NCBI RefSeq assembly: GCF_900209925.1
Contig: NZ_LT907978.1
Span: 2,203,001 to 2,267,000 of the forward strand
DNA: 64,000 nucleotides
Direction of reading: 5' to 3'
Source: Anaerobutyricum hallii
GTDB lineage: Bacteria; Bacillota; Clostridia; Lachnospirales; Lachnospiraceae
In this document: in pieces, positions 1 through 18,426 of the stretch
Layout: the number at the start of each line of letters is the position of its first letter
Position numbering within the stretch: position 1 is the first letter of the stretch
The notes under the pieces: generated by a model
What the model was told of the DNA's origin: nothing
The model's input: the letters and a program-made list of their open reading frames with translations, nothing else
The model's database searches: none
Made by a program: the position numbers and the translations under genes

Positions 1-908
1 CTCTCTTTTTTATATGAAGAAAATGCATTTGCTGGTGAAATGCCTTTTTTCTTGCAAACTATGTCCAGCCACTTCCGCCCGTCACGAACAGTAATCGGAC
101 AGGGCTGCTCTGACTCTACTTTGGCATAAACCTGCATCGGTACCGGCATAGCTAAAAACATCTCATGATTACGCTTCTTTAATTCTTCTCCTATTTCTGG
201 CGGTGTGCCAACACATAAAATCTGCCCTTCATCCATGACCACTACCCTGTCAGCAGAAGGAAATACTTCCTCTAAACGATGTTCCGTAAGAATAATTGTC
301 GTTCCAAGATCACGATTAATCTTCTTTACTGTTTCCAAAAAATCAGAAGCTGCAATCGGATCAAGCTGAGAGGTCGGCTCATCAAGAATCAGCATATCCG
401 GATGCATGGCCATGATAGATGCCAGATTCAAAAGCTGTTTCTGTCCTCCGGAAAGTTCCGATACATTTTTATAGAACCAGTCCTGAATTCCAAAATAACT
501 TGCCATTTCCGCTACCCGGATACGAATATCTGCGTTACTGTATCCAAGGCTTTCCAAACCAAATGCCAGCTCATGCCACACTTTATCTGTCACGATCTGA
601 TTATCCGGATTCTGTAATACATAGCCAATCCTCTGACTCTGCTCCCGGTTACTCATCTCCCCGATTGGTACTTTCTGAAAAAGAATCTCTCCTTTTCGCT
701 TTCCATGCGGTGTTAGAGGAGTCTTTAAATGTGTCAGAAGTGTACTCTTTCCACATCCACTCTTTCCGCAAAGAACAAGGAATTCCCCATCCTCCACATG
801 CAAAGAAACATGATTTAGCGCCCTCTTTTTTTCTTCTGGATAAGCAAAACACAAATCATTGATTTCTAATATACTATTTTTCTTTTCTGACAAAGCATTC
901 GCTGTCAC
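1..908 (-). CDS. ECF transporter ATPase (EcfA/CbiO-like), partial at window edge
   Basis: ATP-hydrolysing subunit of an energy-coupling factor vitamin or metal importer. Translation from a GTG at 908 (RBS GGAGGT five bases upstream) gives Walker A GKSGCGKST at about residues 48-56, Q-loop LQNPDNQ near 98, signature LSGGQ near 152 and Walker B MLILDEP near 171. The reading frame is still open after about 302 residues at base 1. Single EcfA proteins are usually around 280 residues, so this is probably a fused double-ATPase (inference). It lies 41 bp after the EcfT gene and is probably co-transcribed with it and with the cobalamin-riboswitch cluster upstream. The substrate-binding S component is not visible and may lie beyond the left edge. 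Confidence 0.88.
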   Translation of the reverse strand, partial: MTANALSEKKNSILEINDLCFAYPEEKKRALNHVSLHVEDGEFLVLCGKSGCGKSTLLTHLKTPLTPHGKRKGEILFQKVPIGEMSNREQSQRIGYVLQNPDNQIVTDKVWHELAFGLESLGYSNADIRIRVAEMASYFGIQDWFYKNVSELSGGQKQLLNLASIMAMHPDMLILDEPTSQLDPIAASDFLETVKKINRDLGTTIILTEHRLEEVFPSADRVVVMDEGQILCVGTPPEIGEELKKRNHEMFLAMPVPMQVYAKVESEQPCPITVRDGRKWLDIVCKKKGISPANAFSSYKKE

Positions 909-949
909 CCTGCACCTCCAAACTTGCTTTTTATCTCCTGTATATATGG

Positions 950-1891
950 TCATTCAACTTCCCACAAACGGTACCCAGCCTGTGCTGCACTTTCTACCTG
1001 TCCTCTTCTCGCCTTCCACATCCTTCGGTCTAAAATCTCCATCGCTACTGGCATGATACTAAACAATAAAAAAGGTGCAAAAACAAGCAAGCTGCCTGCT
1101 GTAAAGGGTACTCCCTTTACGACGATTCGAGGATTATAAGAACAAAATGCATACCCCTTTGAAAAGCCCCACATCGCTGCTCCGAATGTAAGGATCATAA
1201 AAATAAAGCACAAAAAATCCCTTTTATCGAAATGATATAAGGAAAAGGCGGTTCTGCCCTTCTCTCCATATCCCCGGCACTTCATTGAATCCGATGTTTC
1301 AATCGCATTCTCCAAAGACCAGGTAACCAGAATCGAAAAAATCGTAATCCCATGCTTTGCTCTCTTAATAAGGCTCCCATTCTCTACACTTCGCCCGACA
1401 CACTTTTGCCCATCAGAAATAACAGATGCTTCTTTGATAAACTTCGGTACAAAGCGAAGGCACATGGAAAGTACTAAAGAAAGTGCCGGGATAATCCTTC
1501 CAAAAAGATAAATAAACTTATCTGATGTCATAACAACTGTGTAGCAGGAAAACCATACAAGAGTACATACCAGCATCACTGCCATCACAAGACCGTACAC
1601 ACAACTTTCTAATGTAAACGGATTTCCATTATGAAGATATCCTATAATCGTTACTCCATAATGATTAAACATCGGATTGATCAGGGCAACAATGATCATC
1701 ATCGGTAATGAGAAGAGCAGATTAAACTTTACTGTCTTTTTCCATCCTTTTAAAACAACGGAATACGCAACAGCGCATATAAATGAAATTGCCAGAATCA
1801 CAGGGTGAACAACAAACATCGTCACCCCGATCGTCCCACAAAAATACAGCATATTTAAAACAGGATGATATGTCGAAAATGTATCTTTCAT
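950..1891 (-). CDS. ecfT: ECF transporter transmembrane component EcfT (CbiQ family)
   Basis: Membrane scaffold that couples the ECF ATPases to a substrate-binding S subunit. The 313-residue protein has several hydrophobic segments and, near residue 205, the T-component coupling signature SDSMKCRGYGEKGRT, which matches the family's RG-containing coupling-helix motif. Start is ATG at 1891. The usable Shine-Dalgarno GGAG lies about 11-12 bases upstream, inside the last unit of a 16-bp tandem repeat. It lies between the DUF4430 lipoprotein gene (93 bp upstream) and the ATPase gene (41 bp downstream). With those neighbours and the riboswitch further upstream, the cargo is inferred to be a corrinoid, though the T component itself does not determine specificity. 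Confidence 0.9.
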   Translation of the reverse strand: MKDTFSTYHPVLNMLYFCGTIGVTMFVVHPVILAISFICAVAYSVVLKGWKKTVKFNLLFSLPMMIIVALINPMFNHYGVTIIGYLHNGNPFTLESCVYGLVMAVMLVCTLVWFSCYTVVMTSDKFIYLFGRIIPALSLVLSMCLRFVPKFIKEASVISDGQKCVGRSVENGSLIKRAKHGITIFSILVTWSLENAIETSDSMKCRGYGEKGRTAFSLYHFDKRDFLCFIFMILTFGAAMWGFSKGYAFCSYNPRIVVKGVPFTAGSLLVFAPFLLFSIMPVAMEILDRRMWKARRGQVESAAQAGYRLWEVE

Positions 1892-1983: not shown

Positions 1984-3324
1984 TTAATACATCGAATTAT
2001 CTCCAACATCCTTACCAAGATTACATGTATAAACCCAGTTGATCACATCGCCGTCCTGTACCGTATACTTACTGCATCCGTAGTTAGGAAACCAGCCATT
2101 TACGTTATACATCCATCCGGAAAGCTGTCCGCAGTCGAATTCATATAGATTGTTAATTCCTTCCACATAAGCTGAATTATAAGCCGGTGTAAAAGAAGAC
2201 TCCATCTGAATTCCTGCATCCTTACATACACGCTGTAATACGTCATGTACAGACTCTCCTTCCGTAAATTCTACCTCGGAAGCCGCCAGAATCCATCCAT
2301 CAGAAGGAACAAATTCTTCCTTACCACTTTTTAAATCACTCATGTTATTAAGAATCGTCGCGCAGCTGATCGAAATCGTACACGTATGGGAAGAACCTGA
2401 AACTTCTTCATCGTTTGCAACATCCTGCTTACTTGAAGAACCAGAGGAAGAAGCGCCTCCATCAGAAACATCTCCACTTCCTGAACTTCCTTCTTCATTA
2501 TAGGAATTCTCTCCTGAATTCCCCGATTCATCACTTCCTTCCGATTTACTGTTCATTGTTCCGTTTTCCGCCTTATTCGCCGATGCTGCACCTTTATTCT
2601 GCTGCTCCGTAATTCCTCCAATAATATAACAATCTCCATCCAGCGAAGTAACACTCATTTTTAAAGATGTCGTTCCTTCTTTTGGCTTCGTATCTTTCTT
2701 TGCCTGTGTTGCACTTTCTGCGGTTTTGTTCGAAGAATCTTCCTCTTCTGTATTTGTATCCTGCGACTTTTTATCCTGTTTCTTTGTATCCTCTTCCTTT
2801 ACCTGTGCTGTTACCGCAACATCGCTCATCCTTGCAAGCTTTCCAGACTGCTCTTTTACAAGATATGCAGAATTGGACTGCCACGCTTCCGGAAGCTGTA
2901 CCTCTAGATCTGGTACACAGATCAGCCCTTTCCCGTACATTGTCATCTTCAATGCATCATTTGCATTGTTCGCCTGCTTCTTTAAATCATCAAGACCTTT
3001 CTCTGAAAAATCAATCTTTAAATTCTGATCTGCCGGATTCTGAATCTTTGAACAGTCATATGTCCAGATATATGTAATTCCATCATCTGTTGTCCCCTTA
3101 AACTGTACCTTTTTATTCTCTCCGGCAACCGTCTTAAACTGTTCCTTTGTAATAACCCCATCTTCCGGAATGGTATTCACATCTGCAAGTGTCTCTGTCT
3201 TATCCGTCTTTTTATCAGAAGAACTGTCTCCGCTCCCGGACTTTCCACAGCCCGTTGAAACAACCAGCAACATACTCATAAGTAATGCCAGAATAACATG
3301 TACCAGTCCTCTTTTTCTTTTCAT
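1984..3324 (-). CDS. DUF4430 (transcobalamin beta-domain-like) lipoprotein
   Basis: Predicted surface lipoprotein of 446 residues. Start is set at ATG 3324, which has a GGAAGG ribosome binding site; an upstream in-frame ATG would put about 20 charged residues before the signal peptide. The N-terminus is basic, then hydrophobic, ending in lipobox VSTGC (Cys about residue 26), followed by a Ser/Asp/Lys linker. A middle domain (about 50-260) is unrecognised. A low-complexity Ser/Gly/Asn/Glu linker (about 260-330) precedes a C-terminal DUF4430 domain (about 330-446) with the typical GWMYNVNGWFPNYG segment. DUF4430 corresponds to the beta domain of animal transcobalamin and intrinsic factor (established family relationship). 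It lies 43 bp downstream of the alpha/alpha-toroid gene and just upstream of ecfT. Inferred role: corrinoid or other ligand capture at the membrane for the ECF importer. Confidence 0.8.
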   Translation of the reverse strand: MKRKRGLVHVILALLMSMLLVVSTGCGKSGSGDSSSDKKTDKTETLADVNTIPEDGVITKEQFKTVAGENKKVQFKGTTDDGITYIWTYDCSKIQNPADQNLKIDFSEKGLDDLKKQANNANDALKMTMYGKGLICVPDLEVQLPEAWQSNSAYLVKEQSGKLARMSDVAVTAQVKEEDTKKQDKKSQDTNTEEEDSSNKTAESATQAKKDTKPKEGTTSLKMSVTSLDGDCYIIGGITEQQNKGAASANKAENGTMNSKSEGSDESGNSGENSYNEEGSSGSGDVSDGGASSSGSSSKQDVANDEEVSGSSHTCTISISCATILNNMSDLKSGKEEFVPSDGWILAASEVEFTEGESVHDVLQRVCKDAGIQMESSFTPAYNSAYVEGINNLYEFDCGQLSGWMYNVNGWFPNYGCSKYTVQDGDVINWVYTCNLGKDVGDNSMY

Positions 3325-3367
3325 AGTAACACCTTCCTTTTTCTTTTTCTGTAGTCTGCAAAAGTCT

Positions 3368-5590
3368 CTACTCTGCTTTTCCACCTTTCATCACTTTCTT
3401 TAATAATCCTGCAATACCACGACGCTTTTTATATAAAACAAATCCCAACGCTTCCACTGCCACAAGTCCTGCTGCACCTCCGGCTACAGGTAATGCCACC
3501 GAACGGATTCCATCTGCTTTAGAACGATCACCCTCATCAGACACCCCTGTATCTTCCTGCACTGTATCTGTCTCGCTTTCTGCACTGTCCGTTTCCGGCA
3601 CATAATTATCTCCACTAAAACTCCAGCCACCCGTTGTTGCTTCCGCTGCAGTATTCTTTTTCTTTGCGGTAGTAGTTTCACTGCTTCCTGAAGAAAGCTT
3701 CTTCGTCGTTCCCGATGTGGCAGGAACAGAAGTACGGGAACTTCCTGTACTTGAAGCTGCCGGTGTTGTAATCTGCCTTGTCTGGCTTGTTGCCGCTGTT
3801 GATGCTGCTGTAGTATTCTTTTTAGCTGTTGTTTCTGGAGCTGTTACGACAACCTTACAGACTGCCTTCTTTCCGCTTCCATCCGTTGCCTTTACTGTAA
3901 TCGTCACAGTGCCTGCTTTCTTTCCTGTCACCTTTCCCTTTGCATTTACCGTTGCAATCTTTTTATTAGAAGAAGACCATTTCACTGACTTATTCGTGGC
4001 ATTTGACGGAGAAACCGTCGCTTTTAACGTCTTGCTCTTTCCTTTTGTAAGATAAATCGTACTATAATTTAACCCTACTTTTATTACCTTTACTTTAGAA
4101 GCTGCCGGTTTTGTTTCTGTCTTTTTTGCTGTCGTTACCGTTTGGGAAGAATTTCCTCCACTATTACTCCCCGTATCAATCGTCGGGCTGACTACCGGCT
4201 TCGTTCCTGCCGAAATAGCCACATCACTCATATCATAAAGAAATGTCTCTCCATCCAAAAATCTACGGTAAGCAACTGTTGCATACAATCCCTGTTCCGT
4301 TGCCATTCCATCGATAACGCCACCGGCACCGCCACCATTATTCCCGGCACCAGCAGCTACATGCATAAATCCGCCTTCTGGCATATAATACTGGAATAAT
4401 CCTGTCATCGGCCATTTCCCATTCTTAATAAAACGGGCATCTTCCCCACAATCTATTCCCACGCCACAAAGAGCTGTGATAATCTGTGCCACACTTTCCG
4501 AAGTTTCTGTATTATTCATCGTGCCAAAACCACCACTGGAAAGCTGATTCTTTTCTATCCATGCAAGTCCCTTGTCAATTGCCGCTGTAACATCCTCATA
4601 TCCATCTTTATTATAATAAGAAGCCAGTGCCTGCATCGCCATCCCCGTCATATCAGAATCTCCGGTTGTCCCCATCATTGTCCAGCCACCATCCTGACAC
4701 TGCATTCCTACAACCTTCTTAACAAGTAACTCCTCTGAGTTTTGCTGCACTGCAGAAGGGTCTTCTGGAATCTCATATGCCGGATTACTCTTTAACGCGA
4801 TCAAAGCCCAAATCGTGCCGTTATTCCCCTGTCTGCTTACATTCTCATAATCTGACAGATACGCTAATAGGTTATGTCCCATCACATCTCTTGCATCAAC
4901 ACCAATCGCTGTTAATGCAAGAATAAGCTTTGAATAATCCGAATACTTTGCTCTTGTAATCTGCCAGTCCTTGCTCTCACAGTATGCGATCACATTGCTG
5001 TAAAAAAGATTTGTATAAGATTCCGGCACATACAGCCCACTCCTTTTTAAACCAATAACATTCCATATACTACTGTAATCCGGCTTCGTATCTTTACTTA
5101 AGATATAGCTTCTTACCTTAGATAAAACCGTATCAATATCCGGGCTTAAAACTTCCGCCTCTGCCACTTCTTCCTTTGCATCAGAAGACTGCTCTGCACT
5201 TTCTTCTGCCCCGTAAGCATAAAAACTAAAACTTCTTCCAAGTTGCAAATTCTTACGGACCATCTTTCTCTCTTTTTTTGTTAATGTCTGTTCTTGTGTA
5301 TTTTCCTGTACATCTGCCTCCGTACTTGTTGATGCATCTGCATCTTCCCCGGTCTGCTGTTCCTCCTCTTCCGAAGACTCCGTCTCTTCCCTTTCCGATG
5401 TCTCGTTTTCTGATGTCTCACTTTCTGACATAGAAAAATCGCCTGTACTCTCTGCTGCAGAAGCAGCCGCGGCCGGTTCTGTCCCATTATCTGCCGCATA
5501 TGCATAGTATGGAACTATAAATGCCACAAGCAGAGCAAAAAGTACAAGCGATATACATTTTCTTTTTAACCTTTGATACATCTTGTTCAT
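3368..5590 (-). CDS. Membrane-anchored alpha/alpha-toroid (prenyltransferase/transcobalamin alpha-like) protein with Big2 domain
   Basis: Surface protein of about 740 residues. Start is placed at ATG 5590 (RBS GGAGAGG); a longer in-frame start at 5665 would overlap the leader hairpin. Order of parts: signal peptide (1-32, ending YAYA), acidic Ser/Glu linker, helical-repeat domain (about 150-460), Big2 Ig-like domain (about 500-590), Ser/Thr-rich wall-spanning linker, one membrane segment and a basic tail (last 45 residues). The helical repeats contain QDGGW, SSGGFGT, DMTGMAMQALA and SVAQIITAL motifs, typical of alpha/alpha toroids of the squalene-cyclase/prenyltransferase and transcobalamin alpha-domain type. 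It has no visible cyclase DxDD motif, so a binding role is more likely than enzymatic. Next gene is a DUF4430 lipoprotein; together they resemble a split intrinsic factor (inference). Confidence 0.78.
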   Translation of the reverse strand: MNKMYQRLKRKCISLVLFALLVAFIVPYYAYAADNGTEPAAAASAAESTGDFSMSESETSENETSEREETESSEEEEQQTGEDADASTSTEADVQENTQEQTLTKKERKMVRKNLQLGRSFSFYAYGAEESAEQSSDAKEEVAEAEVLSPDIDTVLSKVRSYILSKDTKPDYSSIWNVIGLKRSGLYVPESYTNLFYSNVIAYCESKDWQITRAKYSDYSKLILALTAIGVDARDVMGHNLLAYLSDYENVSRQGNNGTIWALIALKSNPAYEIPEDPSAVQQNSEELLVKKVVGMQCQDGGWTMMGTTGDSDMTGMAMQALASYYNKDGYEDVTAAIDKGLAWIEKNQLSSGGFGTMNNTETSESVAQIITALCGVGIDCGEDARFIKNGKWPMTGLFQYYMPEGGFMHVAAGAGNNGGGAGGVIDGMATEQGLYATVAYRRFLDGETFLYDMSDVAISAGTKPVVSPTIDTGSNSGGNSSQTVTTAKKTETKPAASKVKVIKVGLNYSTIYLTKGKSKTLKATVSPSNATNKSVKWSSSNKKIATVNAKGKVTGKKAGTVTITVKATDGSGKKAVCKVVVTAPETTAKKNTTAASTAATSQTRQITTPAASSTGSSRTSVPATSGTTKKLSSGSSETTTAKKKNTAAEATTGGWSFSGDNYVPETDSAESETDTVQEDTGVSDEGDRSKADGIRSVALPVAGGAAGLVAVEALGFVLYKKRRGIAGLLKKVMKGGKAE

Positions 5591-5648
5591 TCTACCCTCT
5601 CCTTCACTCATTTTACAAAATATCCAAGAGAAATTGAGAGTTTTCCGT

Positions 5649-5683
5649 AGAAAAGAAAGGCCCATGCATTATGTGCACAGGCC
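5649..5683 (-). terminator. Terminator-like hairpin (attenuator candidate) in the toroid-gene leader
   Basis: On the minus strand a 9-bp stem (GGCCTGTGC with GCATGGGCC, two G-U pairs, loop ACATAAT) is followed by TTTCTTTTCT. It lies between the promoter at about 5830 and the toroid gene start at 5590, so it would terminate the leader transcript unless antagonised. Confidence 0.6.
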
Positions 5684-5809
5684 AAATACTTTTATAAAAC
5701 TGTTATATTCTCTAGCCCAGATATTTGTTTTCATTCTAAAATCAAATGGCTGGCAATTCAGAATGAAAATAAGGAGAGTCCCCTAAGTGAGCCTGAGAAG
5801 CAAGCCATG
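5684..5809 (-). promoter_or_regulatory. Structured 5' leader of the toroid gene, ligand unknown
   Basis: About 126 nt between the promoter element and the attenuator-like hairpin carry no gene. A 10-bp stem TTTTCATTCT/AGAATGAAAA encloses a loop with GCCAGCC, and CTGGGCT just 3' of the stem could pair with part of that loop (possible pseudoknot). I do not recognise a known riboswitch here; the conserved cobalamin-riboswitch blocks are absent. Confidence 0.4.
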
Positions 5810-5878
5810 TACATATTATAACATAGACTTTTAAAAAAATATGCCAACCAGACGGGTGTATTTGCTTCATTTTAGGAA
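5810..5878 (-). promoter_or_regulatory. Promoter element 2, duplicated with the one before the riboswitch
   Basis: On the minus strand this segment shares AAAATGA, CCGTCTGGTTGG, an ATA-TTTT-AAAAG block and CTATG with 10948-11013, in the same order and with similar spacing. A TATAAT box near 5818-5823 precedes the leader. TTGGCA 16 bases upstream of TATGTT could serve as -35. The shared CCGTCTGGTTGG is a candidate operator or activator site. Confidence 0.6.
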
Positions 5879-5904
5879 ATTAAGCGGGTGAAATTGTCCT
5901 GCAA

Positions 5905-8514
5905 TTATTTCACCTTCATTTTCTTTACATTTGAGTAATTACCGTAATAAGTTGTTCCTCCTGCTTTACGATAAGTACGGATCTTGAAGTAATAAGTTTT
6001 CTTTTTCTTTAGCTTTCCGGCTTTATAAGTCACTGTCTTATTTTTGGTAATTGTCTTCACTTTCTTATAGCCGCTGTTTTTCTTCATGGACTGGTATACT
6101 TCGTAGCCAGTTGCATTTTTTACTTTCTTCCATGTAAGCTTCGCCTGATTCTTTTTCAGCTTCTTAATGGATTTTATAGATGTTTTAGATGGAGTGTATT
6201 TCTTTTTCAGAGCTTCCTGCTGAGCTTTCTGTTTCGCAATATTATCTGCCGTAGTTTTTAATTTGTCATATTGGGCTTCTGCGTCTGTAAGAATTTTAAG
6301 CTGCGAATAAACTACTAACGTTTTCTGTTCTGCATTTAATACATTGTATGCTGTTCGTGCAGCATCAATTTTCTTTTTACAGGAATCATTCAATACAACT
6401 GCTCCTATATTATTAATCTTTGCTACCGCATCCTGTGCTGCTTTTACTTTTTCATAATCAGGACTGCTTTCTTCATAGTAATAATTATCTGTATAGTGGA
6501 ATACAACTACATCCCCATCTTCTAAATATTGTTGATTAACTCCAAAGTTAGGATGAATACCATTTAGCGTATACATCCAGCCAGAGCCTTTTCCGTTATC
6601 AAATTCTCCTAACGTTACTCCCCTTCGCGTAATACTTTCCACATAATTTCCAGTCGGATTGGAACAGGTCATACTATTATTTTTAAGAACCATATTTAGT
6701 AAATCTTTTACATTTGCGTTCGCACTAATTGTATATTTTTTCGGTGCTATCCAAGTCTGCAAAGTTCCCATACTTAAAACATGTGTATTCTTATCTTTTT
6801 CCGAATTGTGAATCTCGTCTCCTAAAAGAGAAAATGTTACAGATATTTGTTGTGAGGAATCTTTAATTACATTAACAGAAATAGTTGTCATTGCACTTCC
6901 ATAATATAAACGAACAATCTTTGTTCCTCTTGTCTCATTATCAAACTGCCCAACAGTAATATCGTCTATATTGACAATTGTATCTGCCTTTCCCTGAGTC
7001 CAATGTGCAGTGAATGTCAATCCTGTTAAATCTAATTTTTCTCCGATATAATATGTCTTTTTGTAATTTCCCGAAATAGTTAGTTCGTGACAAACTGGCT
7101 CAATCGCATCATCAGAACATTTCACTAACGTTTTTAAATCTTTTCCCAGAGGATCATCAGAACGATTGTAGTTTGGCATAGCAATTGCCTTACCTGGATA
7201 TCTTCCCGTATCTTTCCAATCTCCATCTACTACTTTATAAATTTGATCCCAATCCTCTTGCGTATAAGTTGAATAATTAGCAGTATTATAATAAAATACT
7301 CCATTGTTCATACCAAATGGTACAGCATTTGTATCTACATGTACTACTTTTCCTAAACCTTTATTGGCACCACACTGACTTGCATATACATTATCCTTAA
7401 TCACATTATTAACATTTAATGCTCTTATATAGCCAATAATCGCACCTACATTAGTGTTTCCAGATACTTTTCCTAAAAAAGTATTTGATACAATCTCCCC
7501 TATTCCATTATCCCATGCCTGATCAATTCCTGCCTCTGCACCAAAAATTCCACCTATATTATCTCGTCCTGATATGTTACCATCTACTGTACAGTTTTTA
7601 ATTACAGCTCCAAAGGCATTTGGTGCATTATACATATAATAACCAGAACCTAAAATACCGCCAATATTATTTCCTGTTGCATTAATTGTTCCATGAAATG
7701 CACAATTTTCAATGCTAAATGTGTCTGTACTCTGTCCACGAATACCGGCAATTCCACCAACATTGGAATCTCCATATACCGTAGCATAACTGACACAATT
7801 TTTAATTGTTCCGTTTAAAGCTCCCCCAAATGATCCAATATTAGATAATCCTGCAGAAGTCCCATCAATATTGCAACCAATAGTCACTCCTTGTTCAATC
7901 GTGCAATTTGTAAAATCTGCATGGTCAATTCCAGATGCATAGCCTCCGATAAAACCTGACTGATAAATCTTTGTCCCACTTTTAATTGTAACATTTTCTG
8001 CGGTAATCGTTACTTTCGGGTCATCATCTGTCCAATTTTTCGCATCTTTTCCGTAGTCAACAACATAATTTTCTACAAGACCATATCCGTCAATATATTC
8101 ACCATAAATATTGAGATTCTCTACTTTAGCATCACGCACATAACCAAATAATGGTTTGCTTCCTTTAGAAAAAGTTAGTGTATGACCATTTCCGTCTAAT
8201 ATCCCAGAAAACGGTAATATATTGCGTCCGTTTCCTGCATCAGTTACTCCTTCTTTTAACATACCTAATGGTTTCCAGTCAGTAGGAAGTTTTATATCTG
8301 ACTCCAGGCGAAAATATTTATTCTTGTAGGACTTTCCACTTTTAATCCCATCCTGTATTATCCCAAAATCATTTACTGTGTTAATAATATATGGGTCACT
8401 TTCTGTTCCTGTACCAGTCAGCATTCCTTCTGCCGCAAATAACATCATCGGCATTAATAACATTCCAATCAATACTGAGGCTATACTTACTATCAGTTTA
8501 CTTATATTTTTCAT
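5905..8514 (-). CDS. Large secreted GLUG/Big/DUF4430/FN3 surface protein
   Basis: Secreted protein of 869 residues. Order of parts: signal peptide (1-28, ending LFAAE); a long beta-helical region with GLUG-like repeats (about 35-430, recurring NIGGI and NVGAIIGY segments); a bacterial Ig-like domain (about 480-555); a DUF4430 domain (about 560-690, with GSGWMYTLNGIHPNFG); a helical segment with an ARTAYNVLNAEQKTLV motif (about 700-760); and a lysine-rich FN3-like C-terminus (about 790-869). Start ATG 8514 has RBS GGAGGG. It is the third gene after the cobalamin riboswitch. The DUF4430 domain suggests ligand binding, possibly corrinoid; the remaining parts look like an extracellular display scaffold. 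No sortase motif or membrane anchor is visible, so it is either released or held non-covalently. Confidence 0.78.
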   Translation of the reverse strand: MKNISKLIVSIASVLIGMLLMPMMLFAAEGMLTGTGTESDPYIINTVNDFGIIQDGIKSGKSYKNKYFRLESDIKLPTDWKPLGMLKEGVTDAGNGRNILPFSGILDGNGHTLTFSKGSKPLFGYVRDAKVENLNIYGEYIDGYGLVENYVVDYGKDAKNWTDDDPKVTITAENVTIKSGTKIYQSGFIGGYASGIDHADFTNCTIEQGVTIGCNIDGTSAGLSNIGSFGGALNGTIKNCVSYATVYGDSNVGGIAGIRGQSTDTFSIENCAFHGTINATGNNIGGILGSGYYMYNAPNAFGAVIKNCTVDGNISGRDNIGGIFGAEAGIDQAWDNGIGEIVSNTFLGKVSGNTNVGAIIGYIRALNVNNVIKDNVYASQCGANKGLGKVVHVDTNAVPFGMNNGVFYYNTANYSTYTQEDWDQIYKVVDGDWKDTGRYPGKAIAMPNYNRSDDPLGKDLKTLVKCSDDAIEPVCHELTISGNYKKTYYIGEKLDLTGLTFTAHWTQGKADTIVNIDDITVGQFDNETRGTKIVRLYYGSAMTTISVNVIKDSSQQISVTFSLLGDEIHNSEKDKNTHVLSMGTLQTWIAPKKYTISANANVKDLLNMVLKNNSMTCSNPTGNYVESITRRGVTLGEFDNGKGSGWMYTLNGIHPNFGVNQQYLEDGDVVVFHYTDNYYYEESSPDYEKVKAAQDAVAKINNIGAVVLNDSCKKKIDAARTAYNVLNAEQKTLVVYSQLKILTDAEAQYDKLKTTADNIAKQKAQQEALKKKYTPSKTSIKSIKKLKKNQAKLTWKKVKNATGYEVYQSMKKNSGYKKVKTITKNKTVTYKAGKLKKKKTYYFKIRTYRKAGGTTYYGNYSNVKKMKVK

Positions 8515-8634: not shown

Positions 8635-9828
8635 TTACTTTGTAATCTTTACCGTTTTTTTCTGTCCCTTATTTTTCATCATCTTTTTATAAGATTTTAA
8701 CTGTTTCGCAGGAACCTTAATTATAGCCTTTTTGTCAATGCCAGTAAATGCCTTGCTTCCCACTTTACTAAGTACAGTAGATTTTACCTTAATCTTTTTC
8801 ACCTTACTGTCACCAGCAAATGCCTGAGTTCCAATTGTTTTTACGTTCTTTCCAATGACAATACTTTTTGTTTTCTTCTGATTTTTGAAAGCTTTATTTC
8901 CAATGGCTGTTACTTTAAAATTAACTTTCTTATAATTTACAGCAGAAACAACATTTACTTTTGCAAGCTTTTTATTTTTATAGCCAACAACTGTAACTGT
9001 AGGATTCTTCACAAGATTACTTGTTACTCTATACTTATACCCTTTTACAGTAAAGGTTGTACCTTTTTTGACTGCAACAGTATTAACTTGTGGATTGGAT
9101 GGCTTTGTTGTAGGTTTAGCTTCTGTTGTAGGCGTTTCCTGTTTTTTATCATCTTCTGACTTTGTAAGTTCAGCAATTTTAGCTTCTGAGTCGGTCAATT
9201 TCCGAACTAAAGATGGAGCCATTAATTCTTTTTGTGCATCTGTTAATTCATTATATGTTACTCTCGCCTCTACTACTGCATTTTTATCTGCTAATGTTAA
9301 TGCACTCACTCCTGGTAAATCCTCTAATTTCGTAGTTAATAATGCAGACTTTGTACCCTCTCTGTGAACATAGATCATATAAGTCTGAATATCTTCTTGA
9401 ATATCTTCATCTACATTGCCTTCTACACCAACTTTTATCTCAACAGTGGAACCTTCAACTGTTTCGTCTGATAACATTGCAGATATATCTGTACTAGCAG
9501 AATCTGAATTTTCAAGTTTTACATTGTCAGGCCAACTATATCCAAACATATGACATGTATAATATGCAACAATCTTACTATTTTCAGGCACATTTTCGGA
9601 CATTTTTGCTCCAACGCTTACCTTTTCATTTGGAACAACAATTGAATATTCAAGTTTATCAGGCTTAAAATCTTTAATTATATTTTCTTTACTTTCAACT
9701 CCTGCATACGCCCTTAAATCTGATAAATAGTTTTTATTTTGATTCTCAGCTGCATGTGTCGTTAATGAAAGGACACATATACATGATAAAATAGGAATAA
9801 CAGAAAGAATTTTTCTAATTTTATTCAT
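8635..9828 (-). CDS. Secreted BspA-type LRR_5 surface protein
   Basis: Secreted protein of 397 residues; start ATG 9828 follows GGAGG by five bases, whereas the longer in-frame start at 9849 overlaps the upstream gene. It has a signal peptide (about 1-27, ending THA), a beta-sandwich-like domain (about 35-160) beginning YLSDLRAYAG, a helical stretch (about 165-220) related to one in the next gene (ARVTYNELTDAQKEL), a Pro/Thr linker, and C-terminal BspA-like LRR_5 repeats (about 250-397; AIGNKAF, TIGTQAF, KVGSKAF). Such repeats are common in cell-surface proteins of gut Firmicutes. Its role in the cluster is unknown; adhesion or display is plausible. It begins 14 bp after the small DUF4430 gene, so they are co-transcribed. 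Confidence 0.75.
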   Translation of the reverse strand: MNKIRKILSVIPILSCICVLSLTTHAAENQNKNYLSDLRAYAGVESKENIIKDFKPDKLEYSIVVPNEKVSVGAKMSENVPENSKIVAYYTCHMFGYSWPDNVKLENSDSASTDISAMLSDETVEGSTVEIKVGVEGNVDEDIQEDIQTYMIYVHREGTKSALLTTKLEDLPGVSALTLADKNAVVEARVTYNELTDAQKELMAPSLVRKLTDSEAKIAELTKSEDDKKQETPTTEAKPTTKPSNPQVNTVAVKKGTTFTVKGYKYRVTSNLVKNPTVTVVGYKNKKLAKVNVVSAVNYKKVNFKVTAIGNKAFKNQKKTKSIVIGKNVKTIGTQAFAGDSKVKKIKVKSTVLSKVGSKAFTGIDKKAIIKVPAKQLKSYKKMMKNKGQKKTVKITK

Positions 9829-9842
9829 ATTTTCCTCCAATA

Positions 9843-10352
9843 TTACCATGTATAAATCATTGATTCATAACTTAATGTAAAAGTTACGTTTCCATTAACA
9901 GTTGCTTTAGAAAGTACTACATCTGGATAGCTATTTATATCTGCTGGAATTGTAGATGGCTCACCATTAAAGTACATCCATGAATTTCCAATATATGTAT
10001 TTGTATTTGGATAGCTTCCCTTATTTGTATAAGTTTTATCACCTACTTTAAGAGAATCAAGGTATTTATCTGTTGTTCCAGTCCATACAGCATTTGAAAT
10101 ACCACTTCCACTAGTTGCACAAGCCTGATCAATTGCATCCGCATAAGTTGTCCCTGCATTTACTGTCACAGTTACTGGATTACCTGAATTCAATTTATCC
10201 GTTCCGGTCACTACTCCACTAGCATTTCTCGTTGCTGTCTGTAAATAAATTTTTACAGTATACGTTGTTTCCCTTGCCATTGATGTTACACCAAGTCCCA
10301 TCATCATAACTACTGCGAGCATCACTGCGAGCATTCTTTTTAAAGTCTTCAT
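9843..10352 (-). CDS. Small secreted DUF4430 (transcobalamin beta-domain-like) protein
   Basis: First gene downstream of the cobalamin riboswitch. The 169-residue product is a signal peptide (about 1-27, ending SMA) plus a single DUF4430 domain, including the diagnostic SWMYFNGE segment near residue 127. Start ATG 10352 has RBS GGAGG, held in the loop of a small AGTTT/AAACT hairpin. In intrinsic factor and transcobalamin the equivalent domain closes over the upper face of cobalamin. Here it stands alone, so a small soluble or wall-associated corrinoid-binding partner is inferred. Other DUF4430 proteins have unknown ligands, so specificity rests on the riboswitch context. Confidence 0.8.
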   Translation of the reverse strand: MKTLKRMLAVMLAVVMMMGLGVTSMARETTYTVKIYLQTATRNASGVVTGTDKLNSGNPVTVTVNAGTTYADAIDQACATSGSGISNAVWTGTTDKYLDSLKVGDKTYTNKGSYPNTNTYIGNSWMYFNGEPSTIPADINSYPDVVLSKATVNGNVTFTLSYESMIYTW

Positions 10353-10947: not shown

Positions 10948-11013
10948 GTACATTTATTCATAGCTTTTCTGAAAAGTATTCCAACCAGACGGATGTCTTT
11001 TCGTCATTTTGGA
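10948..11013 (-). promoter_or_regulatory. Promoter element 1, upstream of the cobalamin riboswitch
   Basis: Shares an ordered set of blocks with 5810-5878, including the exact 12-mer CCGTCTGGTTGG (10981-10992). TTGGAA and TATGAA separated by 16 bases are candidate -35 and -10 boxes. Transcription would begin just before the P1 stem of the riboswitch. Confidence 0.55.
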
Positions 11014-11143: not shown

Positions 11144-13072
11144 TTATTTTACGCTTATCGGAACATATATGTATACTTTTTTATTGATGTATCTTTCAAA
11201 AGTAAAGTTCTGTAAAGAGACCATGTCGCGGTGTTCTTTTATCCAGCCATAAAAAACACATCGGGAAAACATACGGATGGTATCTGCGAGATTATCCACA
11301 TCGCTTTCGCGGTCTGTTTCAAATACAGCAAATCGTCCGGCGGCTATCTCTATTTTCACAGAATCTTCCGGCACATTTGTAAAGTTGTTTACAACCGGTC
11401 CAAGGATATATTGAATATTGATACATTCCGGGTCATGATACCACATGGCAATCTTATCATTTCCATTCGCACTTCCGGCTACAGAGTTCATTTTCTTGAA
11501 GTATGGTGAGTCCTCATCGAGCCAGAATGCTACCTGTGCCGGTATATCTACTTCCCGTCCACGATTTGGGATGATCGTCCAGCCAACCATTTTGATATCA
11601 TCAACGTCCATAAAGGATACCTTCATTTTATCTTTATATTCTGAGTAAAACTGATTTAGGTCAACAACTTCTGTGTTTGCTTTAGCATATTTGGAAGGAC
11701 TGGTACAAAAGGCTTTGCGGAAGGCTTTATCAAATCCATTTCTCGACTTAAAACCATATTTTTTTGCTAAACTAGCCACCTTGACACCCTGACGTAATTC
11801 TCTGGCGGCTTTTTGTATTTTCCTCTGACTGATATACGCACTAAGTCCCATTCCAAAATCATCCTGAAAGGCTTTGCGAAAATAGTCTCTGGAATAGTTA
11901 AAATGTTCCGCCATCATCTCCGGTGTGATATCTTCTGTAATATGCTCATCAATGTAATTGATCCATGCAATATTCTGAAATTCCATCCGGTAATACTTTG
12001 CCGGAACAACACCGTATTCTTTGCGAAATGCATTAGAAAAAACGCTATAACTTGCAAATTGATATTTGGCACATACTTTTTCCGGATTCTTTCCTTCTTT
12101 TAATTCTTCTGCAGCAAAGTACAGCTTTCTCTGTTTTATGTAATCGGTGATTCTCGTTTCATAATAAAGCTGGAAAATATTTTTTAAATGTTTCTCGGAA
12201 TAATGAAACAGCTTTGCAAGGCCTTTTGCTGTTAAATTCTCCGTAATATGCTCATCAATATAACTAATCCACTCGTCAACTCCATAAATCTTTTTCTCCT
12301 CTTTTTTATTTTTCATTACATAATCCGAATGCATTCTTTTTTCAAGAGGAAGATATACTGAGTACAGTCCGTTTTCAAAAGAAATAAAATACATTTTCCG
12401 ATTGTCATAGTGCATTTCACTTTGCTTTATCCAGTCACATAACGCATATTTTATCAACATTTTTATCATATCCGGTGCCTGTTTATCCCAATATTGCTCT
12501 TTTAACGTAAAAACTGCATAATCCGATGCCCCAATATCAATTCTCTTCTTTTCACTTTCCCTTCCGGCATCTTTTGGAACTTCCTGCCCGATCATATAAA
12601 AGAAATGGTATGAATCATCATGCCACCAAAACTGCATATACTCTCCGGCACGCTCCCTCTCCTTCCACTTTTCCTTTACATCCTTCTCGATATATTCCAT
12701 TCCGTTTTGAAAAACATCACCTTCTAAAGGCAACATATCTGCCTCTACTGTCTGTGCCATTCTTCTCACAACTTTATATTCTATCATAGAACTATCAGGA
12801 ATCCGTTCAAATGAAAGGACCTGATTTGTATAATCCTCTTCCATATTCAATCCCTGCACCTGTTCCCTGATTGTATCAAGAGAATTGTCAAAGAAAATGT
12901 CAGCCAGATAAAGGAATTCCTGCGTAGAATATGCCAGTCTGCTTGCCAGATCTTTTACCGAAATGCTGTTATCTGTCTGAAGGCACAAAAGAGTGTCTCT
13001 CATACGTTCCCATAAAGCTGATTCTTCCTCCGGAAGTGAGGAAAATGTTTTTGTCTCATTCACTGTGTTCAT
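11144..13072 (-). CDS. Fused double AraC-family regulator (GyrI-AraC-AraC-GyrI)
   Basis: 642-residue transcription regulator with an unusual symmetric layout. An N-terminal helical segment (1-80) precedes a GyrI-like effector-binding domain (about 85-250, with YMQFWWHDDSYHFFYMIG). Then come two AraC helix-turn-helix domains (about 268-365 and 370-465, both starting WI.YIDEHIT) and a second GyrI-like domain (about 480-640). GyrI/BmrR-type domains bind small hydrophobic compounds or serve as effector sensors. The C-terminal half resembles the separate AraC-GyrI regulator at 13559-14380, so the gene looks like an internal duplication. Start ATG 13072 is preceded by AAGGA. Targets are unknown; it lies upstream of the cobalamin cluster on the same strand but has its own terminator. 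Confidence 0.82.
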   Translation of the reverse strand: MNTVNETKTFSSLPEEESALWERMRDTLLCLQTDNSISVKDLASRLAYSTQEFLYLADIFFDNSLDTIREQVQGLNMEEDYTNQVLSFERIPDSSMIEYKVVRRMAQTVEADMLPLEGDVFQNGMEYIEKDVKEKWKERERAGEYMQFWWHDDSYHFFYMIGQEVPKDAGRESEKKRIDIGASDYAVFTLKEQYWDKQAPDMIKMLIKYALCDWIKQSEMHYDNRKMYFISFENGLYSVYLPLEKRMHSDYVMKNKKEEKKIYGVDEWISYIDEHITENLTAKGLAKLFHYSEKHLKNIFQLYYETRITDYIKQRKLYFAAEELKEGKNPEKVCAKYQFASYSVFSNAFRKEYGVVPAKYYRMEFQNIAWINYIDEHITEDITPEMMAEHFNYSRDYFRKAFQDDFGMGLSAYISQRKIQKAARELRQGVKVASLAKKYGFKSRNGFDKAFRKAFCTSPSKYAKANTEVVDLNQFYSEYKDKMKVSFMDVDDIKMVGWTIIPNRGREVDIPAQVAFWLDEDSPYFKKMNSVAGSANGNDKIAMWYHDPECINIQYILGPVVNNFTNVPEDSVKIEIAAGRFAVFETDRESDVDNLADTIRMFSRCVFYGWIKEHRDMVSLQNFTFERYINKKVYIYVPISVK

Positions 13073-13558: not shown

Positions 13559-14380
13559 GTGAATAAAAATAATTCTTTAGAAGTAATAAAAGATTGTACC
13601 ACATACATAGAAAATCACCTTCAAGACACATTAACAGCAGAATCTCTGGCTTCCCGCTATGGTTACTCTCTTTATCATTTCTGCCACATTTTTAAAATCT
13701 GCTGTGATATGTCACCGGGAAAATACATACGCCTTCTCCGTTTGGAAAAAGCAAAAAAGGATATTTTATCTGGAATGAGTATCACACAGGCCGGATTTGA
13801 TAATGGCTTTGAAACCAGTTCCGGTTTTTCTAAAGCATTTCGCAAAGAATATGGTATTAGCGCACGAGAATATTTAAAACAAAATAAAGAAAGTGAGGTT
13901 CTTATTATGCTACACGTTGAAATTAAAACATTGCAGTCACAGACAGCACTTGGGTACGAGATTCCCGGCGAATATGACAGTGATTACAGCAAATCCGGTG
14001 CTTACTGGAATCACATTAATTTTAAAGAATACCCTGCCTATCCAGAAGGAATCCATGATTATGGCGAAGTTGGACTATGGACCCATCCCGACCATATCAG
14101 CGGTGAATTACACTATTTCTTTGGCTTTTTAACTGACTCTACAGAAATTCCGGAAGGTTTCCATAAGGTGGAGATTCCTGCCGGACGATACGCAGTTTTT
14201 ACAATTAAATCACAGGAAACTCCTGAAAAAATGGCGGATGCTGTACGGGATGGCTGGCGTTACGTCTTTACCGAATGGCTCTGTACGCAAAAAGAGTATA
14301 AAATATCACATCAGGGGATGTGTTTTGAATGCTATCAGGGAGAAGAAGCATATCTTTATCTACCAGTGATTGATTTGTAG
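13559..14380 (+). CDS. AraC-family regulator with GyrI-like effector domain
   Basis: 273-residue transcription regulator on the plus strand. Start is GTG at 13559, seven bases after GGAG. The N-terminal AraC double helix-turn-helix (about 8-105) includes SLYHFCHIFK and the conserved second-helix region GFETSSGFSKAFRKEYGISAREY. The C-terminal GyrI-like domain (about 120-273) has GLWTHPDHISGELHYFFGF and ends YLYLPVIDL. This layout is the second half of the 642-residue regulator at 11144-13072. The gene lies between two inverted copies of the 179-bp element, and its last codons lie in the arm of a large palindrome that serves as terminator. Targets and effector are unknown. Confidence 0.85.
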   Translation: MNKNNSLEVIKDCTTYIENHLQDTLTAESLASRYGYSLYHFCHIFKICCDMSPGKYIRLLRLEKAKKDILSGMSITQAGFDNGFETSSGFSKAFRKEYGISAREYLKQNKESEVLIMLHVEIKTLQSQTALGYEIPGEYDSDYSKSGAYWNHINFKEYPAYPEGIHDYGEVGLWTHPDHISGELHYFFGFLTDSTEIPEGFHKVEIPAGRYAVFTIKSQETPEKMADAVRDGWRYVFTEWLCTQKEYKISHQGMCFECYQGEEAYLYLPVIDL

Positions 14381-14912: not shown

Positions 14913-14946
14913 ACCAATATAAATGTTCATAGGGAGGAGGAACAAC

Positions 14947-16506
14947 ATGGGGATTTATTTTAATCCAGGAAATGGAAGTTTTACAGAAGATAAGAATAGC
15001 CAAATTTATGTTGATAAAACGGAGCTCTTGAAATTTTTAAATAAAAGACTGAAAACAAATGGTAAATGTATCGCTGTCAGTCATGCCAGACGTTTTGGTA
15101 AGTCCCATGCTGCCGGAATGATTGATGCTTACTATAGTCTTGGCAGTGATTCCTCAAAACTGTTTGAAGATACCAAGATTTCATCTGACCCTGATTATGA
15201 AAAATACCGAAACAAGTACAATGTTATCCATTTAGATATTTCATCTTTTTTTGATGATTACAAAGACAATCTGATAGAAAAGATTGTGGAATATATTTAT
15301 GATGATATCACAGACGAACTGGGAAACATTCTGGATTATAAAAAGAAGTTAAGTTATGTATTAATGAAAATTTATGAAAAGACGGAAATTCCTTTTGTTA
15401 TTATTATTGATGAATGGGATTGTGTTATCCGAAACAGTAACGACCAGGCTTTAGTGCATAAATATTTGCAGTTCTTGCATTCACTTTTTAAATCAGAAGA
15501 ATCGAAATCGTTTTTGGCTCTGGGGTATATCACAGGCATTTTACCAATTAAGAAGATAAAAGATGAGTCTGCTTTAAATAATTTTCAAGAATATACTATG
15601 CTGGATTCCTATCCAATCACAGAATACTATGGCTTTACCGAAAAAGAAGTGAAAGATTTATGCGAAGATCAGGCTATGGATTTTGAGACAATAAAGGCAT
15701 GGTATAACGGATATTTGATCGATGGTATGCATATGTATAATCCGAATTCTGTATCGAGGGCATTAGAAAGACATAAAGTAGATTCTTATTGGCGAAACAC
15801 TTCTGCCTTTGGTACGATCAATACCTTTATTTCAATGAATTATGCCGGACTAAAGGAAGATGTGCTTGCCATGTTAGCTGGCGAAAAAGTGATGGTTGAC
15901 ACTGAATGTTTCCAGAACGATTTTACAGAAATCCACTCAAAAGACGATGCTCTGACTGCCTTGATCCATCTTGGTTATCTTGGTTACGATAAAGACATGT
16001 TAAGTGCCTATATTCCAAATTATGAAGTGTCTAAGGCATTTCAGTCGGCTTTAAAATCAGGTTCCTGGAAGGAGATCGCCGCATCTATTTCCAGATGTGA
16101 TGAGCTACTCATCGCCACGATAAATAAAAATGCGGAAAAGGTAGCTGAACTCATTGAGCTTGCTCATGAAACCTACACTTCTGTATTAAAATATAACGAT
16201 GAAAATTCCCTAAGCTGTGTACTTACCATGGCTTACTTTACAGCACCGGCTTATTATAATATCATCCGGGAGATGCCTTCCGGAAAGGGATTTGCTGATT
16301 TTGTTTTTCTCCCAAGAGCAAATGCTGGCAATCGCCCTGCAATGATCGTGGAACTAAAACACAACAAGACAGCAGATGCAGCAATCACGCAAATCAAAGA
16401 GAAGAGATACCAGGGTGCTTTGTCTGGATATAAAGGAAAGATTTTACTAGTTGGAATTAATTACGATACAGAAAAACATCATACATGTGTAATCGAAGAA
16501 TACTGA
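14947..16506 (+). CDS. AAA-ATPase-like / PD-(D/E)XK nuclease-like protein, paralogue 1
   Basis: 519-residue protein (start ATG 14947 after GGGAGGAGG; an in-frame ATG at 14923 lies upstream of the RBS). The N-terminal AAA-ATPase_like domain (about 1-290) has an atypical Walker A, ARRFGKS (about 43-49), and Walker B FVIIIDEWD (near 150). The C-terminal PD-(D/E)XK-like domain (about 410-519) has FADFVF...MIVELKHN, matching the D-x(n)-ExK nuclease core. This pairing (Pfam AAA-ATPase_like plus PDDEXK_9) is abundant in gut anaerobes; its function is not established, though nucleic-acid processing or defence is often suggested. A second copy follows in tandem at 16867-18426. Confidence 0.85.
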   Translation: MGIYFNPGNGSFTEDKNSQIYVDKTELLKFLNKRLKTNGKCIAVSHARRFGKSHAAGMIDAYYSLGSDSSKLFEDTKISSDPDYEKYRNKYNVIHLDISSFFDDYKDNLIEKIVEYIYDDITDELGNILDYKKKLSYVLMKIYEKTEIPFVIIIDEWDCVIRNSNDQALVHKYLQFLHSLFKSEESKSFLALGYITGILPIKKIKDESALNNFQEYTMLDSYPITEYYGFTEKEVKDLCEDQAMDFETIKAWYNGYLIDGMHMYNPNSVSRALERHKVDSYWRNTSAFGTINTFISMNYAGLKEDVLAMLAGEKVMVDTECFQNDFTEIHSKDDALTALIHLGYLGYDKDMLSAYIPNYEVSKAFQSALKSGSWKEIAASISRCDELLIATINKNAEKVAELIELAHETYTSVLKYNDENSLSCVLTMAYFTAPAYYNIIREMPSGKGFADFVFLPRANAGNRPAMIVELKHNKTADAAITQIKEKRYQGALSGYKGKILLVGINYDTEKHHTCVIEEY

Positions 16507-16832: not shown

Positions 16833-16866
16833 ATCAATATAAATGTTCATAGGAAGGAGGAACAAC

Positions 16867-18426
16867 ATGGGAATCTATTTTAATCCGAAAAATAGAAGTT
16901 TTTCTAAAGATAGAAATTATGAAATATATGTAGATAAAACAGGTCTGTTAAGTTTTTTGAATAAAGCAATTGATACTCCTAAAAACTGTATTGCTGTCAG
17001 TCATGCCCGACGTTTTGGTAAATCTCATGCTGCCGGAATGATTGATGCTTACTACAGCCTTGGCAGTGATTCCTCAAAACTGTTTGCAGATACCAAGATT
17101 GCGTCTGACCCTGATTATGAAAAATACCGAAACAAGTATAATGTTATTCATTTAGATATTTCATCTTTTTGGGATGATTACAAAGTCAATCTGATAGAAA
17201 AGATTGTGGAATATATTTATGATGATATACAAGAAGAACTGGGAAATATTCTGGATTATAAAAAGAAGTTAAGTTATGTACTAATGAAAATTTATGAAAA
17301 GACGGGAATTCCTTTTGTTATTATCATTGATGAATGGGATTGTGTTATCCGAAACAGTAACGACCAGGCTTTAGTGCATAAATATTTGCAGTTCTTGCAT
17401 TCACTTTTTAAATCAGAAGAATCGAAATCATTTTTGGCTCTGGGGTATATCACAGGAATTTTACCGATTAAGAAGATAAAAGATGAGTCTGCTTTAAATA
17501 ATTTTCAAGAATATACTATGTTAAAATCAAGACCTATTACAGAATACTATGGATTCACAGAAGATGAAGTTAAGGAACTATGCCAAAAGTATGATATGGA
17601 TTTTGAGACAATGAAGGCATGGTATAACGGATATTTGATTGACGGAATGCATATGTATAATCCGAATTCTGTATCAATGGCTATAAACTACCAGGATTTT
17701 GATTCTTATTGGAGGAATACTTCTGCCTTTGGTACGATCAATACTTTTATTACAATGAATTATGCTGGATTAAAAGAAGATGTGCTTGCTATGTTAGCTG
17801 GCGAAAAAGTGATGGTAAATACAAATACTTTTCAGAATGATTTTTCTATGATAGCTTCAAAAAGCGATGTCTTAACTGCTTTAATTCATCTTGGATATCT
17901 TGGATACGATGCAGACATGAAAAGTGCATATATTCCTAATTATGAAGTAGCAACTGCATTTGAATCTGCTTTACAGACAGGCTCTTGGAAGGAAATCGCC
18001 GCATCCATTTCCAGATGTGATGAACTTCTTATAGCCACGACAAATAAAAATGCGGAAAAGGTAGCTGAACTCATTGAGCTTGCTCATGAAACCTACACTT
18101 CTGTATTAAAATATAACGATGAAAATTCCCTAAGCTGTGTACTTACCATGGCTTACTTTACAGCACCGGCTTATTATAATATCATTCGGGAGATGCCTTC
18201 CGGAAAGGGCTTTGCTGATTTTGTTTTCCTTCCAAGAGCAAATGCGGGCAATCGCCCTGCGATGATCGTGGAATTAAAACACAACAAGACAGCAGATGCA
18301 GCAATCACTCAAATCAAAGAGAAAAGATACCAGGGTGCTTTGTCTGGATATAAAGGAAAGATTTTATTGGTTGGAATTAATTACGATACAGAAAAACATC
18401 ATACATGTGTAATCGAAGAATACTGA
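16867..18426 (+). CDS. AAA-ATPase-like / PD-(D/E)XK nuclease-like protein, paralogue 2
   Basis: 519-residue tandem paralogue of 14947-16506 with the same motifs: ARRFGKS, FVIIIDEWD, and ADFVF...VELKHN. Start ATG 16867 after GGAAGGAGG. Divergence between the copies is patchy. Residues about 10-35, 215-285 and 310-365 differ substantially, while the middle (about 95-215) is nearly identical and the last roughly 120 residues are identical, DNA included apart from a few silent changes. That mosaic suggests gene conversion after duplication (inference). Both predicted active sites are intact in both copies, so neither is a pseudogene. Confidence 0.85.
   Translation: MGIYFNPKNRSFSKDRNYEIYVDKTGLLSFLNKAIDTPKNCIAVSHARRFGKSHAAGMIDAYYSLGSDSSKLFADTKIASDPDYEKYRNKYNVIHLDISSFWDDYKVNLIEKIVEYIYDDIQEELGNILDYKKKLSYVLMKIYEKTGIPFVIIIDEWDCVIRNSNDQALVHKYLQFLHSLFKSEESKSFLALGYITGILPIKKIKDESALNNFQEYTMLKSRPITEYYGFTEDEVKELCQKYDMDFETMKAWYNGYLIDGMHMYNPNSVSMAINYQDFDSYWRNTSAFGTINTFITMNYAGLKEDVLAMLAGEKVMVNTNTFQNDFSMIASKSDVLTALIHLGYLGYDADMKSAYIPNYEVATAFESALQTGSWKEIAASISRCDELLIATTNKNAEKVAELIELAHETYTSVLKYNDENSLSCVLTMAYFTAPAYYNIIREMPSGKGFADFVFLPRANAGNRPAMIVELKHNKTADAAITQIKEKRYQGALSGYKGKILLVGINYDTEKHHTCVIEEY

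Follow-up and report, generated by a model that had tools for sequence, protein, structure and literature searches.

A toroid protein and a DUF4430 lipoprotein encoded before a CbrT-type transporter in Anaerobutyricum hallii: a probable transcobalamin-like module for cobamide capture

Gene content of the locus

We analyzed a stretch of 64,000 nucleotides of the Anaerobutyricum hallii genome (contig NZ_LT907978.1, positions 2,203,001 to 2,267,000; hereafter the window). It holds two neighbouring genes, one for a protein with a predicted alpha/alpha toroid and one for a lipoprotein with a DUF4430 domain, whose products may each be the counterpart of one of the domains that make up transcobalamin and intrinsic factor. 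The genes belong to a cluster on the minus strand that runs from position 10948 down to the left window edge and comprises a cobalamin riboswitch, standing directly before the first gene, three genes for secreted proteins, the toroid and lipoprotein genes, and the genes for the T component and the ATPase of an energy-coupling factor (ECF) transporter. A preliminary description, made from the sequence alone, had recognized the pair as neighbours (5590-3368, followed by 3324-1984) with a spacing of 43 bp and a position beside the transporter. Coordinates, strand, and order were right, the gap spans 3325-3367, and the genes for the T component, the ATPase, and the S component follow the pair. The riboswitch, the upstream proteins, one of which has a second DUF4430 domain, and a conserved region of the lipoprotein come in addition to what that description covers. 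In window coordinates, the features are:

10977-10992 (-): upstream element CCGTCTGGTTGGAATA, preceding the riboswitch; one of two exact matches in the 3.5-Mb genome
10788-10948 (-): cobalamin riboswitch (RF00174), at the head of the cluster's upstream part; 40.1 bits, gathering score 31.5
9843-10352 (-): secreted protein of 169 residues, possibly and weakly DUF4430-like; open reading frame, about 10 bits with the family profile
8635-9849 (-): secreted LRR_5 (BspA-type) protein of 404 residues; LRR_5 41.8 bits
5905-8514 (-): secreted protein of 869 residues with Big_3 and DUF4430 (residues 604-675); DUF4430 44.3 bits, cut-off 23.8
5840-5855 (-): second copy of the upstream element, preceding the toroid gene; exact match
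5659-5683 (-): hairpin resembling a terminator, with a T-run, after the leader and before the toroid gene; 10 pairs, 6 of them G-C
3368-5590 (-): toroid protein (putative alpha jaw) of 740 residues; open reading frame, Pfam, alignment with relatives
4181-5131 (-): predicted toroid domain inside the 740-residue protein; alignment with 25 relatives, 20-67% identical
1984-3324 (-): DUF4430 lipoprotein (putative beta jaw) of 446 residues; lipobox, DUF4430 62.9 bits
950-1891 (-): ECF transporter T component, CbiQ family; 32.8 bits, cut-off 25
1-953 (-): ECF ATPase of 612 residues with two ABC domains in one chain, extending past the window; open reading frame
Beyond the window, after the ATPase gene (L005, 8137-9111): ECF S component, a CbrT relative

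In the 869-residue protein, GLUG repeats scored just under the Pfam cut-off, and an fn3-like C-terminus also fell under it. Pfam gave no DUF4430 match for the 169-residue protein.

The toroid protein and the DUF4430 lipoprotein

The toroid gene (ATG at 5590, stop at 3368) encodes a protein that begins with a signal-like stretch and a low-complexity region, continues with the toroid and a Big_2 domain (residues 508-576), and ends with a C-terminal transmembrane helix. The helix (702-720, mean hydropathy 1.77) is followed by basic residues (KKRR). With Pfam, the toroid reached 18 bits for Prenyltrans, under the cut-off of 26.5, and its assignment came from relatives: (i) a profile built from the window toroid together with the paralogous one matched the toroid of L046 (G098:C12), a natural toroid-DUF4430 fusion used for modelling, with E 2.5e-33; (ii) a 26-row family profile, window row included, matched squalene-hopene cyclases in the PDB with E 1.6e-19; and (iii) the model of L046 contains a toroid. 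By this homology, the window protein can be taken to carry an alpha/alpha toroid domain.

The lipoprotein gene (ATG at 3324, stop at 1984) encodes a lipobox (STGC) with its cysteine at residue 26, so that the opposite anchoring given for the pair in the preliminary description, a C-terminal membrane helix on one protein and an N-terminal lipid anchor on the other, was found as described. DUF4430 (PF14478) occupies residues 356-433 and is preceded by a low-complexity linker. Between the lipid anchor and DUF4430 lie about 200 conserved residues (about 44-245), for which no Pfam family scored above its cut-off. DUF4430 also forms the C-terminal part of the vertebrate cobalamin binders (PMC4350170), and the window lipoprotein has, in this domain, a counterpart of the C-terminal beta domain of the transcobalamin type.

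DUF4430 was seen on its own as well, in proteins of about 135 residues at L056, L057, L058, and L059. At L056 and L058, the gene comes straight after a cobalamin riboswitch; no riboswitch was found just upstream of the lone gene in the genomes of L057 and L059.

The transporter and a second copy of the cluster

The sole PDB match of the S component (searched up to E 1) was 6FNP, with E 1.6e-10 over residues 149-319. This entry is the vitamin B12 transporter ECF-CbrT (PMC5997447). Going by this sequence match, the S component of the downstream importer is homologous to CbrT; a T component and two ATPase domains, as in the CbrT type, are encoded alongside. Two Pfam families also matched the S component above their cut-offs, the riboflavin-type S family (41.9 bits) and DUF6580 (37.3 bits).

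About 75 kb away in the same genome, a paralogous cluster encodes a DUF4430 protein, a toroid protein, a DUF4430 lipoprotein, and the T, ATPase, and S components. Its toroid domain is 62% identical to that of the window, and its DUF4430 lipoprotein 65% identical over the whole protein. The genome contains four cobalamin riboswitches, two of which lie upstream of the toroid-DUF4430 clusters. That of the paralogous cluster (59.2 bits) is encoded on the strand of the genes, at a distance of 6.3 kb from the DUF4430 gene and 8 kb from the toroid gene; between riboswitch and DUF4430 gene are genes for an AraC-type regulator and a 617-residue Big_2 protein. The genome also has three matches to proteins with a B12-binding domain, and thus uses cobamides.

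Adjacency and riboswitch linkage in related genomes

Occurrence was counted in 100 genomes of the family and in an order-level sample of 196 genomes. Values expected by chance are simple Poisson estimates for an assumed genome size of 2.8-2.9 Mb, and the riboswitch search in the order-level genomes used strict filters. In the family, DUF4430 was matched in 46 of 100 genomes and the toroid in 19, all of them among the 46; the latter number is a lower bound, since a weak toroid in G050 is not included. Removal of two partial pieces from 30 toroid rows left 28 toroid matches, and 26 of these had DUF4430 within 10 kb, where about 0.6 were expected. At the order level, 52 of 196 genomes had a toroid; exclusion of the rows of G000 and G027 and of one sub-threshold riboswitch row left 50 toroid genomes, 46 of which also had DUF4430. 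DUF4430 lay within 10 kb of the toroid for 80 of 87 matches (1.6 expected). The adjacency that the preliminary description had proposed to look for in related genomes is thus conserved.

Cobalamin riboswitches were linked to both families. In the family, 39 of the 70 DUF4430 matches (30 of 46 genomes; about 0.3 expected) had one on their own strand no more than 15 kb upstream, and 22 of the 70 had it within 2 kb; the 70 rows include two under the Pfam cut-off. Upstream of the toroid, a riboswitch was found for 14 of 28 family matches and for 30 of 87 order-level matches (about 0.3 expected at the order level).

Gene order was compared at 46 loci. The presence of a toroid or fusion was the ground for choosing them, some are cut by contig ends, and single genomes contribute several, so the counts describe a non-random sample; L013, which repeats the L031 locus, and L015, which is on a short contig, were left out. 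At 22 of the 46 loci, the gene directly after the toroid gene encodes DUF4430, and next to it, at the position of the ECF T component, comes a gene with at least four predicted transmembrane helices. This third gene was identified by its helices, with the family checked for a minority. Thirteen of the 22 ordered loci, the window among them, had the strictly split form, i.e. a toroid gene without DUF4430.

Natural fusions

A search for fused genes, also suggested at the outset, found toroid and DUF4430 in one open frame in 11 of the 19 family genomes and in 30 of the 50 order-level genomes; pairs of matches were counted as fused when they shared the strand and fell in open frames of equal length. 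Three kinds were seen. In the first, the toroid precedes DUF4430, with 11-14 residues between the domain borders at L060, L061, and L078; this order within 100 residues occurred in 14 of the 50 order-level genomes. In the second, DUF4430 precedes the toroid. The third kind (G017, G039, G073, and G098) consists of the toroid, a transmembrane helix, a few basic residues, a second transmembrane helix, and DUF4430. These four hairpin fusions keep both membrane anchors and look as if the split pair had been welded together.

In a tree of 50 DUF4430 domains, the four hairpin fusions fell within a clade of separate partners encoded before the ECF genes (25 rows; support 92/86, which is below the starred level). 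The clade held 18 of the 20 domains labelled as such partners. The DUF4430 domain of the L033 fusion, about 20 residues after its toroid, was placed elsewhere. Some operons, e.g. at L065, L071, and L074, carry a fused protein and a split pair side by side. That the architecture is split here and a single polypeptide in animals, as first described, therefore holds for the window but is too simple for the bacteria at large, as fused forms are common among its relatives.

Structure models

Two natural fusions of relatives were modelled with AlphaFold2 as ligand-free single chains from small alignments (37 and 17 rows). The model of L046, a hairpin fusion, had a predicted local distance difference test score (pLDDT) of 82 and a predicted template modelling score (pTM) of 0.62; for L060, with its short linker, the values were pLDDT 83.6 and pTM 0.69. 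With Foldseek, the first 9 of 685 matches of L046 (best E 1.4e-8) and the first 15 of 899 matches of L060 (best E 6.6e-12) were all transcobalamin, haptocorrin, or intrinsic factor, and the alignments to these proteins extended through both domains. The beta domain of apo transcobalamin (5no0) was matched by the L046 and L060 models with TMt 0.72 and 0.67, respectively. The claim of the preliminary description that the toroid and DUF4430 are homologous to the alpha and beta domains of transcobalamin-type proteins was thus borne out on fusions of relatives. In the models, the two domains are placed unlike those of the ligand-bound animal proteins, and neither model shows a closed clamp.

Candidate regulatory elements of the cluster

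The element CCGTCTGGTTGGNATA occurs without mismatch at only two sites in the genome, window positions 5840-5855 and 10977-10992 (-). They precede the toroid gene and the cobalamin riboswitch, within about 60 nt of promoter region that is alike in an alignment, and the element is a possible shared operator. In the paralogous cluster, it was absent when searched at up to three mismatches. AraC-type regulator genes adjoin both copies of the cluster (window 11144-13072 (-) and 13559-14380 (+); L006 15862-17406 and 19167-20000) and are candidates for a regulator acting on the shared element. The protein encoded at 11144-13072 gave GyrI-like and Cass2 matches, which are effector-binding-like; the other three are alike by eye only.

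The toroid gene has its own leader (5591-5904 (-)), of which the part 5595-5860 folds better than shuffled sequences (z -2.8). No Rfam family reached its gathering score in this leader. A hidden cobalamin riboswitch directly before the toroid gene was considered and discarded, as a loose-threshold Rfam search returned sub-threshold matches to other families and no aptamer was recognized. Comparison of the toroid leaders of L006, L014, and L031 for conserved RNA structure gave no convincing alignment. The leader could be an unrecognized or decayed regulatory RNA. Given the separate leader, the shared element, and the terminator-like hairpin, the toroid-lipoprotein-ECF unit may be a second, co-regulated transcript rather than a product of simple read-through from the riboswitch.

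A further cobalamin riboswitch of the genome (C1:2116766-2116902; L011 about 8767-8903 (-)) lies upstream of a gene for a lipoprotein-like product of 626 residues (6614-8494 (-)), which by eye resembles an ABC substrate-binding protein. Elsewhere in the window, 14923-16506 and 16843-18426 (+) hold two very similar tandem genes for 527-residue proteins that share their starting residues and look AAA-ATPase-like by eye.

Discussion

Gene content, membrane anchors, fold homology, adjacency, fusion, riboswitch linkage, and homology to CbrT were observed for this locus and its relatives. From them, we infer a corrinoid as the ligand, a composite site between the two proteins, and a hand-off to the importer. 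Probably, the locus encodes a membrane-anchored, transcobalamin-like module for the capture and uptake of cobamides that feeds a CbrT-type ECF importer. The toroid, held by its C-terminal membrane helix, and DUF4430, held by its N-terminal lipid anchor, would be the alpha and beta domains of the transcobalamin and intrinsic factor type. On the outside of the membrane, their ectodomains would enclose a corrinoid and then pass it to the CbrT-type S component of the transporter encoded downstream. The upstream DUF4430 protein, facing the wall or the medium and represented in some relatives by a fused toroid-DUF4430 protein, may catch cobamides further out. A role in cobamide uptake is likely; that the two proteins assemble around the ligand has somewhat better than even prospects.

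Several observations weigh against this proposal. Over both domains, the root-mean-square deviation (rmsd) from the animal proteins was 9.5-13.5 A for L046 and 21.5-24 A for L060. With VIA-align, the best matches were terpene cyclases (Z 23.1 and 21.2), aligned on the toroid alone, and transcobalamin (Z 20.2, rmsd 8.4) and intrinsic factor (Z 17.9, rmsd 21.7) came behind them. By sequence alone, DUF4430 is weakly linked to transcobalamin (E 0.11). Under the strict filters, 22 of the 50 toroid-bearing order-level genomes yielded no cobalamin riboswitch, and in the near relatives L014 and L031 none was found upstream of the pair within the available DNA, that of L014 lying about 8 kb downstream. 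Five of the 50 order-level genomes lack the toroid-DUF4430 adjacency, and in G078 the two are on separate contigs. Within the window, the terminator-like hairpin divides the toroid gene from the riboswitch unit. Finally, the genome has a match to CbiC, and the bacterium may therefore produce cobamide itself.

What is known of the animal proteins bears on the structural objection. Alpha and beta domains of transcobalamin, when produced separately, assemble only upon addition of the ligand (PMC5599065), and therefore a ligand-free model need not be closed. Cleaved fragments of intrinsic factor keep tight binding of cobalamin (PMC6257451). The description of the pair as two jaws of a clamp is accordingly supported in part: homology, anchoring, adjacency, and fusions agree with it, but the two fusion models lack a transcobalamin-like interface. 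The observation itself was confirmed, its interpretation partly supported.

The missing interface would fit a role of both proteins in cobamide uptake without a composite site. The DUF4430 lipoprotein would then bind the corrinoid alone, and the toroid would serve another task, i.e. docking, a second site, or holding a capture protein. The isolated beta domain of transcobalamin was crystallized with bound cyanocobalamin (PMC5599065), and DUF4430 is found in more family genomes than the toroid. All 19 toroid genomes nevertheless have DUF4430, and repeated fusion in two orders, together with the membrane-hairpin fusions, points to a physical partnership. We consider this alternative rather unlikely.

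The ligand might instead be a different large metabolite or cofactor that the ECF transporter imports, at least in some lineages. The toroid-bearing genomes in which no riboswitch was found are in line with this, and so are the Pfam matches of the S component to the riboflavin-type S family and DUF6580. However, among PDB sequences the S component matched CbrT only, riboswitches stand upstream of both copies of the cluster, and their linkage in the samples far exceeds chance, which makes a different ligand improbable. A surface enzyme is an even remoter prospect. DXDD is the catalytic motif of enzymes of the squalene-hopene cyclase type. Although the top VIA-align matches were drimenyl diphosphate synthase and squalene-hopene cyclase, with GH105 and GH88 enzymes and sugar epimerases lower down, the fourth residue of this motif is Asp in none of 26 toroids and none of 17 fusions, and Foldseek ranks transcobalamin-type proteins first with the beta domain aligned too, so that a terpene-cyclase or glycoside-hydrolase activity of the toroid is very hard to credit.

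For a capture module feeding the importer, a wider reading can be offered tentatively, with somewhat less than even confidence: the system may be a bacterial counterpart of the animal B12 relay, in which secreted fusions resembling intrinsic factor would pass the ligand to a ligand-assembled, anchored clamp and this in turn to a CbrT-type importer. In many bacteria of the order, the clamp would have either a separate anchor for each jaw or a membrane hairpin joining the two. If so, ligand-induced assembly of two anchored proteins would act as the substrate sensor of an ECF transporter, and the animal carriers would descend from, or share their origin with, a bacterial toolkit. ECF transporters have been described as binding their substrate via the membrane S component (PMC5997447); this picture would change if an ECF operon had a capture clamp of its own, assembled by the ligand. 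For gut bacteria, the identification of B12 transport systems is still an open problem according to a survey of gut genomes (PMC6593275). Among the titles and abstract openings listed in a search of the open-licence literature, mostly outside subscription journals, none linked bacterial DUF4430 or toroid proteins to cobamide uptake. The finding offers a function to test for DUF4430. It also brings to light a family in bacteria where the two domains known from intrinsic factor come as separate proteins, joined by a hairpin, or fused, with different forms next to each other in some operons.

Among known systems, BtuG and BtuH of the Bacteroidetes have other folds and outer-membrane partners. They resemble the present proteins, for which binding is presumed, as surface B12 binders serving an importer; BtuH is the subject of PMC8941943. 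Closer is ECF-CbrT (CbrTUV) of the Bacillota, with which the locus shares an S component related to 6FNP, a T component with two ATPase domains, and riboswitch linkage. The L. delbrueckii cluster, described as nrdJ-cbrS-cbrT-pduO (PMC5997447), lists no surface capture protein. The window operon adds the toroid and DUF4430 proteins, and the S protein of 324 residues aligns with CbrT only from residue 149 onward. With respect to transcobalamin and intrinsic factor, the window differs in having two genes for two separately anchored surface proteins beside an importer; the fusion models are 11-17% identical to the animal proteins, their domain placement is unmatched, and ligand binding by the bacterial proteins is presumed. 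What the bacterial system appears to share with transcobalamin, haptocorrin, and intrinsic factor is the combination of an alpha/alpha toroid and a small beta domain (DUF4430) in one system, and the fusions at L060, L061, and L078 have them in the same N-to-C order as transcobalamin and intrinsic factor.

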